From NCBI GenBank assembly GCA_903840185.1, contig CAIMFA010000511.1:1-33254 (forward strand): a stretch of 33,254 bases of DNA, given 5' to 3'. Below, one piece after another: positions 14,165 to 27,618 of this stretch (position 1 is its first letter; each line of letters opens with the position of its first letter). Source of the stretch: an uncultured Lentisphaeria bacterium (GTDB taxonomy: Bacteria; Verrucomicrobiota; Lentisphaeria; Victivallales; Victivallaceae). The notes below the pieces were generated by a model. That model was given only the letters and a program-made list of their open reading frames with translations. It did no database searches and had not been told where the DNA came from. The translations under genes were made by a program, and so were the position numbers.

Positions 14165-14179
14165 AATAAAATGTATATA

Positions 14180-14343
14180 GAAGCAATTTCAAAAGTATCC
14201 GGGCATTTTAAGGTTTTTCCCGGTATTTTGGCGCCTTTTGCTCGTTTTTACGTAGCGCTGCTACGCCTGAACTCACAAAAAACACCAAAATTCTCGAGAA
14301 AATTCCTGAAAATTCTTCCCGGAAGTACTTCTGTAATTGCCTC
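14180..14343. repeat. Long imperfect inverted repeat (quasi-palindrome)
   Basis: Left gaagcaatttcaaaagtatccggg...attttaaggtttttcccggtattttggcgccttttgctcg against reverse complement of right gaggcaattacagaagtacttccggg...attttcaggaattttctcgagaattttggtgttttttgtgag; apex CGTAGC-GCT-GCTACG at 14251-14265. Confidence 0.8.
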
Positions 14344-14346
14344 TTT

Positions 14347-15936: not shown

Positions 15937-15971
15937 TTTGCGGCGGGAGTGGGAAAAGCCAGGACAATATT

Positions 15972-16120
15972 TCGCACAAAGGCACGAAGGCGCAAAGAAG
16001 AATTTAACAGGGATGGACAGGATGGACAGGATTTATGCTTCATCTCTGATTTTGAATCAAGATTATGATTCTCAAATCCAAATAAATGTCTTATCTTTGT
16101 GTCTTTGCGGCTTGGTGCGA
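15972..16120. repeat. Possible small non-autonomous (MITE-like) unit
   Basis: Inverted ends 15972-15999 and 16093-16120 match at about 21/28 and are related to the GxxExxY cassette ends; ~93-bp interior with no convincing gene. Confidence 0.5.
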
Positions 16121-16278
16121 GAAAATAGAATCCTATGGAATATTTCACACGGAGATACGAAAATGAATAAAATCGGAAGAAATGATGGTCTTCTGAAAAT
16201 CATATTGTTGCAAGTGTCGATATATAGTGCTATATTTCTTGTATATCAAAAATAATTATACATTTGCAGAGGTATATC

Positions 16279-17520
16279 TTGTATAAAAGAAATCTTTACA
16301 TACGAAAAATTACTCCTTTTTTGGGTAAGCCAGTGGTAAAGGTTATCACAGGAATGCGACGCTCCGGCAAAAGCTGTCTGGTCCGGTTGCTGATCGACAA
16401 GTTAATGGCAGATGGCGTAAACCGCGGGCAAATCGTTTATATTGACAAGGAATCGTATGAATTTGACGCAATACACACCTATCATGATCTAGCTGCGCAT
16501 GTCAAAGCGGCACAGCAGAACGCTGGCGGGATCTGCTATGTTTTTGTTGACGAAATCCAGGAGATACAGGAATGGGAAAAAATCGTTGCGGACTGGTCCG
16601 GGCGGCACGATATTGACGTGGTAATTACCGGTTCAAATGCCAGTCTCCTTTCCGGCGAACTCGCGACGCTGCTGGCTGGAAGATTCGTTGAAATCCGGAT
16701 GTTCCCGCTGTCATTTTCCGAGTTTCTGACTTTCAACGAATTGCAGAAAACGGAGACCCCGGAGGCGTTCAAACAATTTTTGTACTACGGCGGACTGCCC
16801 GGACTGCACGAACTGGGGCAGTTGTCTGATTCTACATTCCGTCCGTTTGTCGCAGGTGTTTACGACTCGATTATGCTGAAAGACATTGTGCGGCGGCATC
16901 AGGTGCGGAACTACGTACTGCTCGAACAGGTCGGCCGCTATATTTTTGACAACATAGGCAATCTCACAAACGCCAGCCGGATTAATGCTTTTCTGAAAAG
17001 CCAGAAACTATCCGTCGGAGTGGACACCATCCTGAACTATATGCGGTGGTTTGCGGATGCTCATCTGACTCACCGTCTTTTACTGTACGATATCAAAGGA
17101 CGGCGTCATCTGGAGGTTAACGAGAAGCATTTTGTGGCGGATTTAGGACTGCGCACCGCCGCAATCGGTTATCGGGCGGATGATATCGGCGGGATGCTGG
17201 AAAATGTGGTATGTATCGAGCTTCTCCGGAGAGGTTACCGTGTCTCTGTCGGCCGGATCGGAGAGCTTGAAATTGATTTTGTGGCAGAGCGTGACGGCAT
17301 GAAGACATACATCCAGGTCGCATATCTGCTGCCGTCCAGAACGACTGTTGAGCGTGAGTGTGCGGCGCTGCTGGCAGTTAAGGATAACTATCCCAAGCTG
17401 TTGCTGACTTTGGACCGCGAGATGGGAAACGATTACGAGGGAGTGCGCCGTCTTTATCTTCCGGATTGGCTGAATGCTGTCGAAGAAGGCGAAAACACCG
17501 GCAATATATGCAATATTTAG
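16279..17520 (+). CDS. AAA_14-type ATPase with DUF4143 C-terminal domain
   Basis: VVKVITGMRRSGKSCLVRLLIDKL Walker A, ICYVFVDEIQEIQEWEKI Walker B, VVITGSNASLLSGELATLLAGRFVEIRMFPLSFSEFL. Likely TTG start at 16279 (LYKRNLYIRK) with AGAGG upstream; ORF-track start is 16264. Confidence 0.88.
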   Translation: MYKRNLYIRKITPFLGKPVVKVITGMRRSGKSCLVRLLIDKLMADGVNRGQIVYIDKESYEFDAIHTYHDLAAHVKAAQQNAGGICYVFVDEIQEIQEWEKIVADWSGRHDIDVVITGSNASLLSGELATLLAGRFVEIRMFPLSFSEFLTFNELQKTETPEAFKQFLYYGGLPGLHELGQLSDSTFRPFVAGVYDSIMLKDIVRRHQVRNYVLLEQVGRYIFDNIGNLTNASRINAFLKSQKLSVGVDTILNYMRWFADAHLTHRLLLYDIKGRRHLEVNEKHFVADLGLRTAAIGYRADDIGGMLENVVCIELLRRGYRVSVGRIGELEIDFVAERDGMKTYIQVAYLLPSRTTVERECAALLAVKDNYPKLLLTLDREMGNDYEGVRRLYLPDWLNAVEEGENTGNICNI

Positions 17521-17584: not shown

Positions 17585-17665
17585 ATCATCCTGTATATCC
17601 TGTCCATCCCTGTTAAATTTCCCTTTGCGGCTTAGTGAGAGAAAAAATAACGTTCAGAATCACGG

Positions 17666-19698: not shown

Positions 19699-21378
19699 TT
19701 ACAGTGCCTTCTGTTCCGGTTCTTTGTGGGCGGCGGCTTTAAGTCGCCATCTTGCGGCTTCTGCTTCATCTTTCGCAACTCCTTCGCCGGAAGCATAACA
19801 GCGGGCAAGTTCGCGCTCTGCGTATGCATATTCCTGATCAGCGGCTTTACGCCACCATTTTACGGCTTCGGTTTTGTCTTTTGTCAATCCGGGATAACCA
19901 TTGTCATAACATTCCCCCAGCCTATACTGTGCTTCTGCATACCCTTTTTCTGCGGCCTTTCTCCAAAACTTTAAAGCCTCAGCGTGATCGGACCAAATAC
20001 CGGAACCACAATCATAACAACAGCCTAACCCGTACAGCGCTTTCGCGTCGCCTGTTTCCGCAGCTTTGCGACGTTCAATATAACTATTTAATTCTCCAAG
20101 CCTAACCGGAGCACTTTCTGATCCGTTTTTCACTGCGAGGCGATACCATTTCGCGGCTTCGACCTCATTCCTCTCCACCCCCCATGCAGTTGTATAACAA
20201 TGCCCTAACAAACTCTGAGCTTCCGAATGTCCCTGTTCCGCAGCTTTGCGCCACCATTTTGCAGCGTCGGCTTTATCTTTTGCCACGCCGTCACCTTTTA
20301 AATAACAAAATCCTAAACAATACTGCGCTTCTATATGCCCCTGCTCAGCAGCCTTGCGATACCATTTTGCTTGTTCAACCCAGTTTTCTGAGTTACCTTT
20401 GCCACGATAATAACTAGCGCCAAGAGAATACTGAGCTTCTGTCAGTCCCTGTTCGGCGGCTTTTCGCCACCATCCTTTCGCGTCTTCACGGCTTCCATCC
20501 ACGCCATAACTGTTTGCATAACAAATACCAAGCATATACTCTGCCTTCGCATACCCTTGTTCTGCTGCTTTGCGATACCATTTTACAGCTTCAACATTAT
20601 CTTTTGTTATTCCGGCATATCTATTATAACCAAACCATAAATTATTCTGTACCGGAAAAATCCACGGCTGCTCAGCGGACTTCCGCCACTTTTTTAAAGT
20701 TTCGTCTTCATCCTTTGAGCCTCCGTTATAATAGCATTCACCTAGTTCATACTGTGCTTTCGCATTTCCATATTCTGCGGCATTTTTGATGCAAAATATT
20801 TTGAATGTTGAATTTCCGGAAAGCAACGGCAGACAGAACTGTATTGCTCCATATAAATACAGTACTGTCAATATAATAACAGCCGCAGAGATTCTCCACC
20901 TACCAATAATTTGGTGCTGAACAACCAACTTCCCATCCCGGTCCCAGGCAGTTCTTCCGTTCTTTTTTAGACTATTATATGCAAGAATATTAGTTACAAG
21001 CGAAACCAGCGGAATACCCAGGCCTTCGCCACGCCACCAGACACGGACTGACCGGGTTATCGCTCCGGAATAATTAAATTTCGTTCCATCATCCGTCCGC
21101 AACTTTATTCTTAAAAGCGCTTTCCCCGGAGTGGTGCCACAAAAAGCAAGCATGATTGATTCAAAAAAGACATAAGCCGTCAACAGCAGCAAGGTTAAAT
21201 TTATGCTGGAAAAATCCAGTATTGTCGGATAAAAGATTTGCAAAACAACGCCTGCCAGTAATCCGAAAATACCGTAATCTATCATTCGAGCCCAGAACCG
21301 AACCCATGGCCGTACTTGCGGATCAGGGTTCTCTGTTGAATCTGCTAATTGTTTGTCTTCTGTGTCAGATTTCAGCAT
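19699..21378 (-). CDS. RDD-domain membrane protein fused to Sel1-like repeats
   Basis: N-terminal VRFWARMIDYGIFGLLAG...FCGTTPGKALLRIKL (RDD), then about nine repeats of the type GYAEAQYRLGECYDNG...A.KWWRKAAEQ. Confidence 0.88.
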   Translation of the reverse strand: MLKSDTEDKQLADSTENPDPQVRPWVRFWARMIDYGIFGLLAGVVLQIFYPTILDFSSINLTLLLLTAYVFFESIMLAFCGTTPGKALLRIKLRTDDGTKFNYSGAITRSVRVWWRGEGLGIPLVSLVTNILAYNSLKKNGRTAWDRDGKLVVQHQIIGRWRISAAVIILTVLYLYGAIQFCLPLLSGNSTFKIFCIKNAAEYGNAKAQYELGECYYNGGSKDEDETLKKWRKSAEQPWIFPVQNNLWFGYNRYAGITKDNVEAVKWYRKAAEQGYAKAEYMLGICYANSYGVDGSREDAKGWWRKAAEQGLTEAQYSLGASYYRGKGNSENWVEQAKWYRKAAEQGHIEAQYCLGFCYLKGDGVAKDKADAAKWWRKAAEQGHSEAQSLLGHCYTTAWGVERNEVEAAKWYRLAVKNGSESAPVRLGELNSYIERRKAAETGDAKALYGLGCCYDCGSGIWSDHAEALKFWRKAAEKGYAEAQYRLGECYDNGYPGLTKDKTEAVKWWRKAADQEYAYAERELARCYASGEGVAKDEAEAARWRLKAAAHKEPEQKAL

Positions 21379-21639
21379 CTGTAGTTGCTCGCAAAATTAA
21401 TGTACACTTTACTGCACATTGGTATTATTATTTCATTCCTCTTCTTTCAAACCGGTATTTTACTATAATACAGAATCGGCCTGTTTGCAATTCTGCGGAA
21501 AGACAGTTTTTTGCAATGAATGCGGAGTTTAAAAAATTCACTTTAAGCGTTTTTGAACCTGCCTGCGCCATTCCGGTTGACAAATTACCTAATGTATAAA
21601 AGGACACGCGCCGGGAATTAAGGTTTTTGGTTAACTTTC

Positions 21640-22360
21640 ACGGAACAATTGAAATTTGAAAATTGAAAGTGGAAAATTGAAAATGAAAAGCAAGAAAAGG
21701 CAAGACAAGCGAGAAAAGTTGAAAGCTTGAGAGCCAGGGAAACAGAGGCAAAACATTCTGCACATGAGTGTCCAAAATGTATAAGTTTATAAAAGGCATA
21801 GTCTGGTTTCCGGAAAACCGGAATGGGGCTTATGGGTCCTATGGGGCCAATGAGACATATAGGCATGGGTGTCCAAAATGAGCTTGATGGGTGTCCAAAA
21901 TGGGGTGCCCGCGGACGCGGGAGTGGAAAGCGAGACAAGCGAGACAAGCTAGACAAGCTAGACAAGCGAGACAAGCTAGACAAGCGAGACAAGCTAGACA
22001 AGCGAGACAAGCGAGACAAGCGAGACAAGCGAGACAAGCGAGACAAGCGAGACAAGCTAGACAAGCTAGACAAGCGAGACAAGCTAGACAAGCTAGACAA
22101 GCTAGACAGGCTAGAAAAGTTATGAAGACAGGGTGCAGGAGGGGTGTCCAAAATGTCCAAAAAGACAATTGAAACTGGAAACCTGAAAAGCGGGGAAATT
22201 GCAGAATGCCTCCCAGGCCTGCCAGTCCTCCAAGTCCTCCAAGTCCTCCAAGTCCGAAACCGCATATGCACATGGGGTGTCCAAAATGTCCAAAATGAGT
22301 GGCAAGGCTGTCCAAAATGTCCGTGGCGTCCGTTTTGTCCGTCATGTCCGTGGGCTGTTT
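21640..22360. repeat. Mosaic of several 9-bp-periodic repeat arrays
   Basis: gacaagc(g/t)a x20 (21934-22113), atggggcct-like (21823-21867), agtcctcca x3.5 (22224-22255), gtccaaaat x8 dispersed, gtccgtNNN x4 (22319-22354). Confidence 0.9.
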
Positions 22361-22432
22361 TTTTGAAAATAAACTTGCAGACCGGGCAAACTTATAATAT
22401 CTTTCATAAACCGCAAGCTCCGGGGTAACAAT

Positions 22433-25054
22433 ATGGATCTTCAATTCAGTTCCGGAAACGAGTCGCTGGATCATGTTCTTGGCGGCATCCGCCAGGGCGA
22501 TAATTGTGTCTGGCAGGTTGACCATATTGAGAACTACCGTTATTTCGTCAATGCGTTTGTCCGGAAAGCCGCCGCTGACGGAAAGAAGATCATCTATTTC
22601 CGTTTCGCCCCGCATGAATCCCTGATTCCGGCAGATGTCCAAGTGAATGAGTATAAGTTCGAACCGGAAAAAGGGTTTGAAAACTTTTTGATCGGTATTC
22701 TGGATGTCATTGACGAACACGGAACCGGGGGCTGTTATGTTTTCGATTCGCTTTCCGACCTGGCGGCGGACTGGAACTGCGACCGGATGCTGGGATGCTT
22801 CTTCATGCTGGTCTGTCCGCATCTGTACAAACTTGATACCGTGGCGTATTTTGTCATCATCCGCAATATGCACGGCCCGCTGGCCACCGACATCATCCAT
22901 AACACCGCCCAGGTGGTGATTGACATCTACGCGGGCAAAGAGCACACTTACATTCAGCCGATAAAGGTTAAGAACCGCTATTCGCCGACGCTGTACATGC
23001 TGCACATCCGCCGCGACGACGTGTTTATGCCGGAAACCCGCAGTTATGTCGTGTCAAAGATTCTCGGCGGCATCGAACAGCCCTGGCTGAACTTTGCCAT
23101 TGACCGTCCCGGTATCTGGACCAACATCATTATCAACGCCAAACGCCTGCATGACCAGCTGCAGTCCGGCACCATCAGCCTGCCGCCGGAAGCTGACCGC
23201 GAAGCGTTGCGCCGGAAGCTCATCCGGATGATGATCACGGAGGATGAATCGGTTTTCAAATTAAGCTGCAAATACTTTGAACTGGGCGATCTGATCGCCA
23301 TCGCCAAACGGATGATCGGCACCGGCCTGATCGGGGGCAAATCCGTCGGCATGCTGCTGGCCCAGTCCATCATGAAAAAGGCCGACCCCAAATGGGAGAC
23401 CAGGCTGGAGCCGCACGACTCTTTCTTCATCGGCTCCGACGTATTCTACACTTACATCATCCAGAACGACTGCTGGTGGGATCTGCGCCGGATCAAACGT
23501 TCGACCGGCGACTTTTCCGCCGCCGCTGAATTCAGGCGCAAAATCATGCATGGGCATTTCCCGAAAGACGTCGAGGAACGGTTCAAGCTGATGTTGAATT
23601 ATTACGGGCAGAGCCCGATTATCGTGCGTTCCAGCAGCCTGCTGGAGGATGCCTACGGCAATGCGTTCTCCGGCAAATATGAGAGTTATTTCTGCGTCAA
23701 CCGCGGCTCGCCGGAGGAGCGCATGGAGGCATTCACCGAGGCGGTCAGGAACGTTTATGCCAGCACCATGAACGAAAACGCGCTGGCATACCGGCTGCAC
23801 AAGGGGCTGCTGGAAAAAGAGGAGCGCATGGGGCTGCTGGTTCAGCGCGTATCCGGCAACTTCCACGAACATTCCTATTTTCCGCAAATCGCCGGGGTCG
23901 GCTACTCATTCAATCCATTCGCCTGGAATAAGAAGATCGATCCCTCCAAAGGGGTTTTGCGCATGGTCTTCGGCCTGGGCACGCGGGCAGTGGAGCAGCA
24001 TGCGGGCGACCATACCCGGATCGTGGCGATCAACCAGCCGCTACTGCGCCCGGAATCCGGCGCCGGCCAGATCGGGAAATACAGCCAGAAAATCATGGAC
24101 ATCCTGAGTTTCAATTCCAACAAACCGGAATCCGTCAAATTCAGCGATATCGCCGGCAATGAAAATATTCCGGCGCTGTCGCTTTTCGCTTCAAAAGACG
24201 AGGAGATGCTGGAGCGGGCGAAGCAGATGAACGTCAAAAAAGTCTTCCCGTGGATATTGTCTTTTGAAAAACTGCTCACCTGTACGGAATTTATTCAGGA
24301 CATGGGGGAAATCCTCAAAACGCTGGAAGAAGCCTACAGCCATCCGGTGGACATCGAATACTCGGCCAACTTCGTCAATGAGGAGGAATACCGGATCAAC
24401 ATCCTGCAATGCCGCCCGTTTCATTTTACCGGCAACGGCAAAGAACTGGCTGCCACGCATAACATCCAGGACGAGAATATCCTGCTCCGGACATTCGACC
24501 CGCTGCTGGGGCAGAGCAAATACGATCCGGTCGGCAAAATCATTTATATCGAGCCGGAGCGCTACAGTTCAATGTCCATCCAGGACCGCTACGCCGTCGC
24601 CCGGCTGATCGGCGGGATCACGAACCATTTCACCCATGACGATAATATCATGCTGATCGGTCCCGGCCGCTGGGGCACGGCGATGCCGTCGCTGGGCATT
24701 CCGGTCAATTTCAATGAAATCAAGAATGTCTCCGTGCTGTGCGAACTGGCGCTGATGCACGAGAATCTCAGTCCGGATATTTCACTGGGAACGCATTTTT
24801 TCAACGATCTGGTGGAAATGCAGATCATGTATATATCCATGAACATAATGAGTCCAGGCAACCTGTTCAACCGCCATTTCATCACGGGCGCGCACAACCT
24901 GCTGCCGGACATCATTCCCGCCGGCGCCGCCATGGCGGATACGGTTTTCGTCGTTGACGCCGCTTCCATCAAACAGGATTACGCCTGCTATATTCATGCC
25001 GACACGGTGAAACAGAAGGGTATGGTTTTTTTCCGGAAAGGAGACGAAAAATGA
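22433..25054 (+). CDS. PEP/pyruvate-binding (PPDK_N) protein with N-terminal KaiC/RecA-like domain
   Basis: C-terminal portion has PIIVRSSSLLEDAYGNAFSGKYES and YRINILQCRPF; N-terminal portion FSSGNESLDHVLGGIRQGDN...GGCYVFDSLSDLAADW is KaiC-like without GKT. Confidence 0.85.
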   Translation: MDLQFSSGNESLDHVLGGIRQGDNCVWQVDHIENYRYFVNAFVRKAAADGKKIIYFRFAPHESLIPADVQVNEYKFEPEKGFENFLIGILDVIDEHGTGGCYVFDSLSDLAADWNCDRMLGCFFMLVCPHLYKLDTVAYFVIIRNMHGPLATDIIHNTAQVVIDIYAGKEHTYIQPIKVKNRYSPTLYMLHIRRDDVFMPETRSYVVSKILGGIEQPWLNFAIDRPGIWTNIIINAKRLHDQLQSGTISLPPEADREALRRKLIRMMITEDESVFKLSCKYFELGDLIAIAKRMIGTGLIGGKSVGMLLAQSIMKKADPKWETRLEPHDSFFIGSDVFYTYIIQNDCWWDLRRIKRSTGDFSAAAEFRRKIMHGHFPKDVEERFKLMLNYYGQSPIIVRSSSLLEDAYGNAFSGKYESYFCVNRGSPEERMEAFTEAVRNVYASTMNENALAYRLHKGLLEKEERMGLLVQRVSGNFHEHSYFPQIAGVGYSFNPFAWNKKIDPSKGVLRMVFGLGTRAVEQHAGDHTRIVAINQPLLRPESGAGQIGKYSQKIMDILSFNSNKPESVKFSDIAGNENIPALSLFASKDEEMLERAKQMNVKKVFPWILSFEKLLTCTEFIQDMGEILKTLEEAYSHPVDIEYSANFVNEEEYRINILQCRPFHFTGNGKELAATHNIQDENILLRTFDPLLGQSKYDPVGKIIYIEPERYSSMSIQDRYAVARLIGGITNHFTHDDNIMLIGPGRWGTAMPSLGIPVNFNEIKNVSVLCELALMHENLSPDISLGTHFFNDLVEMQIMYISMNIMSPGNLFNRHFITGAHNLLPDIIPAGAAMADTVFVVDAASIKQDYACYIHADTVKQKGMVFFRKGDEK

Positions 25055-27488: not shown

Positions 27489-27527
27489 TCCAAGGCGGGC
27501 TTTGCCCGCAACCCGAAATACAGGGAA

Positions 27528-27555
27528 GTCAGGAGTCAGAAGTCAGGAGTCAGAA
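27528..27555 (+). repeat. Four 7-bp repeats GTCAGRA
   Basis: gtcagga gtcagaa gtcagga gtcagaa. Confidence 0.85.
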
Positions 27556-27618
27556 TAAAGCTTAAAACCAGAGACCAATAACCAATAAAACTATAGAAAT
27601 CTAAAACAAAGATATAAT

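Follow-up and report, generated by a model that had tools for sequence, protein, structure and literature searches.

Known short tandem repeats of intergenic DNA

Most reports of short tandem repeats between bacterial genes describe 7-bp families and give no mechanism for them. Among them, the STRR heptamers of cyanobacteria are intergenic, occupy many loci, comprise several families per genome, and are nested with small dispersed repeats. The arrays described here are like STRR in lying at many loci, mainly in non-coding DNA, and in having a short tandem unit. Unlike the 7-bp STRR unit, theirs is mainly 9 bp long and combines a fixed hexamer with three free bases; they belong to a different phylum, and they form fields that can follow a terminase-like gene.

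The Xanthomonas GGGANTN and Nostoc GGGGA(C/T)T heptamers likewise occur as numerous arrays between genes, and their units combine conserved with variable positions; the Xanthomonas repeat is a G-rich 7-mer, and 90% of its arrays keep the same gene neighbours in two species, in contrast to the present arrays, which sit at broken synteny and turn over (PMC4692102). TAACTGA direct repeats are abundant and intergenic in Beggiatoaceae, Cyanobacteria, and Bacteroidetes, and their function is unknown; the unit is 7 bp rather than the 9 bp seen here, related heptamers are rarely repeated, and most lie just upstream of start codons (PMC4679880). Borg tandem repeats are also scattered and fast-evolving, with an unknown mechanism of formation, but they consist of perfect units on extrachromosomal elements, about half of them in genes, whereas the present arrays are intergenic and have tails that vary (PMC9879509).

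As far as we read in their descriptions, neither a 9-bp hexamer-plus-three unit nor a terminase-like companion occurs in STRR, GGGANTN, TAACTGA, or Borg repeats, and no description of 9-bp GTCC arrays was found in open-access papers. The present arrays are STRR-like intergenic repeats of an apparently undescribed form. Their rule of six fixed and three free bases applies to several families within one phylum whose hexamers differ, a regularity not predicted by plain slippage. One genus supplies a candidate partner protein as well as close genomes in which the birth, loss, and rearrangement of arrays can be followed. It thereby becomes possible to test what process builds such arrays and whether they are read.

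A mosaic tract between two genes

The window is the whole of contig C511 (33,254 bp), part of a 6.05-Mb draft genome of an uncultured Lentisphaeria bacterium in 1030 contigs. Comparison within the genus drew on this genome and two congeners, G196 (88-94% DNA identity) and G204; the nearest named relative encountered, Oligosphaera ethanolica (G083), belongs to the same class as the source bacterium. The mosaic tract sits in a 1054-bp gap between an RDD/Sel1-repeat gene and a PPDK_N-domain gene, with the following features.

19699-21378, minus strand: RDD/Sel1-repeat gene, left neighbour of the tract
21647-21689, plus strand: AATTGAA-type 7-bp array, left edge of the mosaic (TRF)
21684-21863, plus strand: segment matching the post-stop region of terminase-small-subunit-like genes (C666, C825; 65-66%), same strand and in order
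21770-21780, plus strand: word GTCCAAAATG, single copy
21870-21902, plus strand: pair of TGTCCAAAATG words, 22-bp spacing, a dispersed genus-specific motif
21907-21930, plus strand: hairpin CCCGCGGACGCGGG, then AGTGGAAAG; the same module lies 3' of terminase-like stop codons elsewhere
21928-22119, minus strand: 21-copy 9-bp array, AAGC(G/T)AGAC on the plus and GTCT(C/A)GCTT on the minus strand (TRF)
22145-22165, plus strand: two TGTCCAAAA words, 9-bp spacing
22209-22255, plus strand: GTCCTCCAA 9-bp array, three units plus GTCC, preceded on the left by degenerate units (TRF, pattern count)
22278-22319, plus strand: TGTCCAAAATG words, 9-bp then 22-bp spacing, running in phase into the GTCCGTNNN array
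22319-22354, plus strand: GTCCGT+NNN array, four units with tails GGC, TTT, CAT, and GGG
22352-22432, plus strand: promoter-proximal region of the PPDK_N gene (product putatively KaiC-like); nucleotide synteny with G196 C8 begins here, directly after the array
22433-25054, plus strand: PPDK_N-domain gene, right neighbour; PPDK_N spans residues 299-679

The N-terminus of the 22433-25054 product appears to resemble a KaiC-type ATPase, on a reading of its sequence rather than a database match. This gene is 96% identical in G196 and has matches in 8 of 60 family genomes (E <= 0.001).

The arrays listed in the original prediction are all present; GTCCN5GTCCN5GTCC matches five times in the window and not once in 100 dinucleotide shuffles. 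These window arrays are real, intergenic, and not a product of chance. The longest listed above (21928-22119) holds 21.3 copies of 9 bp, read as AAGCGAGAC/AAGCTAGAC on the plus strand and GTCTCGCTT/GTCTAGCTT on the minus strand, with essentially a single varying position and a 93% match to the module in own-genome contig C825. A GTC/GTCC core had been proposed as common to all of the arrays. It is shared by the GTCC arrays, all on the plus strand, and does not extend to GTCT(C/A)GCTT, because GTC reads there on the minus strand only; that array forms a module of its own, on the opposite strand. Three intact GTCCTCCAA units plus GTCC occupy 22225-22255, and the tract also contains TATGGG-type 9-mers.

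Eight plus-strand copies of GTCCAAAA begin at 21770, 21871, 21893, 22146, 22155, 22279, 22288, and 22310. The proposal that GTCCAAAAT forms a 9-bp array mostly did not hold: it is mainly a dispersed word, with copies that are single or spaced by 9 bp (22146/22155; 22279/22288) or 22 bp (21871/21893; 22288/22310), the latter being the commonest spacing of this word in the genome. The junction described at 22310-22354 was found as proposed, GTCCAAAAT at 22310 running in phase into the four GTCCGT+NNN units (22319-22354). The GC hairpin spans about 21907-21922, and inverted repeats of at least 12 bp are absent from 21600-22432.

A unit of six fixed and three free bases

The earlier description of a constant core with a changing 5-bp tail is half sustained: the core is fixed, and the variable part is mainly three bases. 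A hexamer followed by at least three different tails at period 9 was counted 34 times in the source genome (about 390 kb), 26 times in G204 (103 kb), and 15 times in Oligosphaera (520 kb), with nine further runs in G136, five in G192, four in G004, and only one in the G196 sample. Other periods gave 0-6 such runs, except for the multiple 18 (up to 18 runs, in Oligosphaera), and shuffled source-genome and Oligosphaera sequence gave none. Fixed hexamers with this variety of tails agree with the prediction that slippage of one seed is not the origin.

For arrays defined solely by GTCC at positions 1-4, mismatch in five data sets was 0-0.15 at positions 5-6 vs 0.16-0.55 at positions 7-9, with a tendency to rise from position 5 to position 9. 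Binomial p values for the difference, optimistic where arrays share descent, were 5e-5 (source genome), 3e-8 (G204), 4e-5 (G196), 0.02 (Oligosphaera), and 2e-7 (other genomes). A fixed hexamer followed by three variable bases, found almost exclusively at period 9, is thus the better reading of the GTCC arrays. The hexamer is not the same in all arrays (GTCCAT, GTCCGT, GTCCGA, TATGGG), and its conservation points to selection or a specific copying process, beyond plain slippage.

Other repeat types were considered. The variable triplets include TAA, TAG, and TGA; the pattern is therefore not a coding one, and the arrays are intergenic, so a protein-coding repeat was rejected. CRISPR arrays, with repeats of about 20 bp or more and longer unique spacers, do not fit a 9-bp unit with a 3-bp variable part. 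A palindromic origin of the paired opposed arrays in G136 C79 was also rejected, the tails of the two arms not being complementary when compared by eye.

Distribution across the phylum

The proposed genome-wide search for GTCCN5 runs returned 37 four-unit matches in the source genome vs 4 for the reversed control pattern; the refuting condition that had been named, a genome with no other 9-bp GTCC arrays, does not hold. Runs of five units were seen in 37 of the phylum's 195 genomes, and both their hexamers and their numbers vary greatly, with 504 matches in Oligosphaera ethanolica, 294 in G180, and 11 in the source genome. The periodicity analysis that had also been suggested, using equally spaced tetramers with no assumption of GTCC, was run on 520 kb from Oligosphaera and on 259 kb from the source genome, where loci were mostly chosen for holding arrays; draft assemblies are among the genomes compared. 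Period 9 dominates in both, with 82 lag-9 arrays in Oligosphaera and 41 in the source genome vs at most 10 and 16, respectively, at each of the remaining periods, leaving aside 18; a minor second class consists of heptamers. The leading period-9 tetramers are GTCC/GGAC in the source genome and, in Oligosphaera, GATC (within the GTCCGATCC unit) followed by GTCC.

By gene calls from a simple hexamer model, 224 of 229 markers are intergenic, and arrays show no clear preference among tandem, divergent, and convergent gaps. Among the listed matches of a wider pattern scan (genome_contigs), many are homogeneous or lie within long open frames, and these matches therefore give no taxonomic map of the class. 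At two Oligosphaera loci (L168, L176), GTCCGATCC arrays alternate with complementary-type arrays (GATCAGACC, GATCGGTCT) that could form long imperfect hairpins.

A terminase-like companion gene

The small terminase of phages has a recognition (pac/cos) site. The source genome shows a comparable arrangement, in which a repeat field lies near an HTH small-terminase-like gene, with the differences that the gene is multicopy in a bacterial chromosome and that recognition by its protein is putative here. In at least six contigs (C666, C537, C967, C363, C825, C448), a field homologous to the tract starts at the stop codon of this gene. The protein has 249 aa, several copies being cut by contig ends, and matches the terminase small subunit in PHROGs (PHROG_309, E 8e-27); Pfam gives only weak HTH and DNA-packaging matches, and the structural model predicts short N-terminal helices at low confidence (pLDDT 57.6). 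A viral origin of the gene was set aside: no relative was confirmed in viral contigs, one of which gave a weak match (33%).

In all six of these copies, 77-208 bp separate the stop codon from the first GTCC array, which is on the same strand and is followed by TGTCCAAAATG words, again on the same strand. At least four G204 contigs carry the homologous field with the gene. The array is on the same strand in four of five G204 copies, together with the words in C330, C361, and C14; C7 has arrays without words, and in C41 the array is reversed. Two copies of the gene show 31% synonymous vs 2.4% non-synonymous difference (pS 0.31 vs pN 0.024), which indicates that it is under selection.

The window field aligns, collinearly and in the same orientation, with the sequence immediately following the terminase-like stop codon, and the gene is absent here; this copy is accordingly read as gene-less. 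Within the source genome, the gene flanks only 6 of the 39 array regions examined. It was not found in the samples of Oligosphaera, G004, G136, and G192, all of which have arrays, and so it cannot explain the phylum-wide class.

In some copies of the gene, the linker (L192 174-222) holds the hairpin and AAGCTAGACAAG words that are apparently translated in frame (APPGGSRECGKEKLDKREKL), which suggests that words can enter genes. These in-frame words resemble Rickettsia palindromic elements.

Dispersed words, copied modules, and broken synteny

In 293 kb of array-rich source-genome sequence, the word TGTCCARAAYG was counted 139 times vs about 2 expected, most commonly at a spacing of 22 bp. The exact 22-bp pair has 94, 85, and 13 copies in the three genomes of the genus and is absent from 75 other family genomes searched. 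The suggestion of a templated or modular expansion fares differently in its two parts: the modular part is supported by the same words recurring in dozens of places (88 matches of the tract to its own genome, self included), and the templated part has no direct support. Tails in the order GTCCATGGx GTCCATATT GTCCATAAx, or close variants, recur at several loci, indicating that whole modules are copied, and the in-phase step from GTCCAAAAT to GTCCGNNNN is found at about ten loci in G204. An origin as IS21 ends was rejected: the copies in C413 and C112 end differently, and the TGTCCAAAATG words of C413 lie outside the element. A MITE or insertion sequence was likewise set aside, terminal inverted repeats being absent from the tract and no known target site duplications marking out a mobile unit.

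The left flank of the tract (to 21638) corresponds to G196 contig C272 and the right flank (from 22352) to G196 contig C8, and these different contigs provide no clean empty site. Left-hand synteny stops at 21638, with a heptamer piece in common at about 21656-21689; beyond the left flank, C272 continues as a mosaic of the same words and then a gene that appears FKBP-like from its sequence. In C8, the right flank is preceded only by degenerate GTCCGTAAAAAGTCCGAACAGGTC. At the site matching source-genome contig C312, G204 C188 has about ten GTCCGACTT units and G196 C409 has one word. Arrays or words lie in 5 of 8 broken vs 0 of 12 kept intergenic regions in three 20-kb comparisons (Fisher p 0.0036), a small test in which two of the three regions were picked for holding arrays and length was unmatched, arrays favouring longer intergenic regions. 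The arrays change fast between congeners and sit at rearranged places, and such turnover counts against a conserved role for neighbouring genes.

Possible origin and roles of the tract

The tract is probably a gene-less copy of a dispersed repeat field, spread by recombination and expanded locally, and not a regulator specific to its neighbours. Short tandem and dispersed words make up this non-coding mosaic, and the field to which it belongs is multicopy in the genus. In at least six source-genome contigs and four of G204, such a field forms the tail of a unit headed by an intact, selected terminase-small-subunit-like HTH gene; the window keeps the field only. Recombination between homologous fields could spread and reshuffle the copies, possibly together with the terminase-like unit, and slippage or unequal exchange may lengthen and shorten the arrays locally; a specific regulatory role for adjacent genes would not be expected. 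The 9-bp step and the resistance of about six bases to change are not explained by this model alone, and the persistence of the hexamers has two alternative explanations: protein binding, with the terminase-like protein as the obvious candidate, or an unusual mode of copying.

A protein-binding platform, which the original prediction also raised, is possible but rated here as rather unlikely: the terminase-like HTH or another protein might bind the hexamers and the 22-bp TGTCCAAAATG pairs as a putative recognition array in a packaging- or transposition-like process, with gene-less copies as additional putative chromosomal sites. The HTH and small-terminase matches of the companion protein are consistent with this, as are its predicted N-terminal helices (at low confidence), the fields that adjoin the gene on the same strand, purifying selection on that gene, the conservation of hexamers relative to the variable 3-bp spacers, and word pairs set two helical turns apart. 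However, hexamers differ between arrays, so that one protein would need broad specificity, and arrays occur in genomes whose samples lack such a gene. A more elaborate version, distinctly less probable, can be imagined from these sequence patterns, in which a multicopy chromosomal small-terminase-like protein, kept by selection with its own putative site arrays, would use gene-less arrays as chromosome-wide sites shaping rearrangement or DNA packaging, and the hexamer-plus-three unit would be a recognition code.

Control of adjacent genes by the repeat, whether as DNA or as RNA, has been proposed for TAACTGA and other intergenic repeats but is improbable here. The almost strictly intergenic arrays and the end of the window copy at a conserved promoter-proximal region would suit such a role. 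Against it, tandem, divergent, and convergent gaps are used without clear preference, congener sites have no arrays or different ones, and the tract has no Rfam match and no stable RNA fold (z +0.93). A CsrA sponge RNA built on GGA motifs was rejected, csrA (PF02599) not being found in the source genome (91.5% complete) with positive controls.

Similarly improbable is templated or directional synthesis, in which a polymerase or repair process would anchor on GTCC, add about two faithful and three loose bases, and repeat. The tendency of mismatch to rise from position 5 to 9 in the five data sets and the almost exclusive 9-base step are what such a process might leave behind, but the same order of tails at different loci points to copying of finished arrays, and a constraint that weakens with distance from a bound core could also produce the gradient.

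An assembly or binning artefact, which the 1030 contigs and the many fields at contig ends might suggest and which had been named as a possible refutation, is very improbable, since the same class occurs in two congeneric assemblies and abundantly in the single-contig Oligosphaera isolate genome; the class itself is real, and it is the length of the 21-unit array that may carry assembly error in this draft. The favoured reading remains that of a gene-less field copy.

Other repeats and possible mobile elements

Several other repeats accompany the tract in the window and its relatives. An AGTCAGG heptamer array (27525-27588) lies at another synteny break; its G196 flanks are 10.7 kb apart on one contig, which carries the heptamers elsewhere. 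Opposite-orientation copies of a dispersed repeat containing CAGGATGGACAGGAT / ATCCTGTCCATCCCTGT are found at 15966-16172 and 17588-17618, and this repeat again shows period 9 (GTCCATCCT). Between these copies lies an AAA_14/DUF4143 gene (16264-17520), with a synteny block on either side; in G196 the two blocks are on different contigs. A dispersed, MITE-like element of about 170 bp (14165-14344) is absent at the contiguous G196 site (C167:34657/34667) and has copies elsewhere in G196 and G204. On source-genome contig C686 (L202 14211-14485), a 275-bp element with terminal inverted repeats is inserted relative to G196 and G204 and has many copies in G204.
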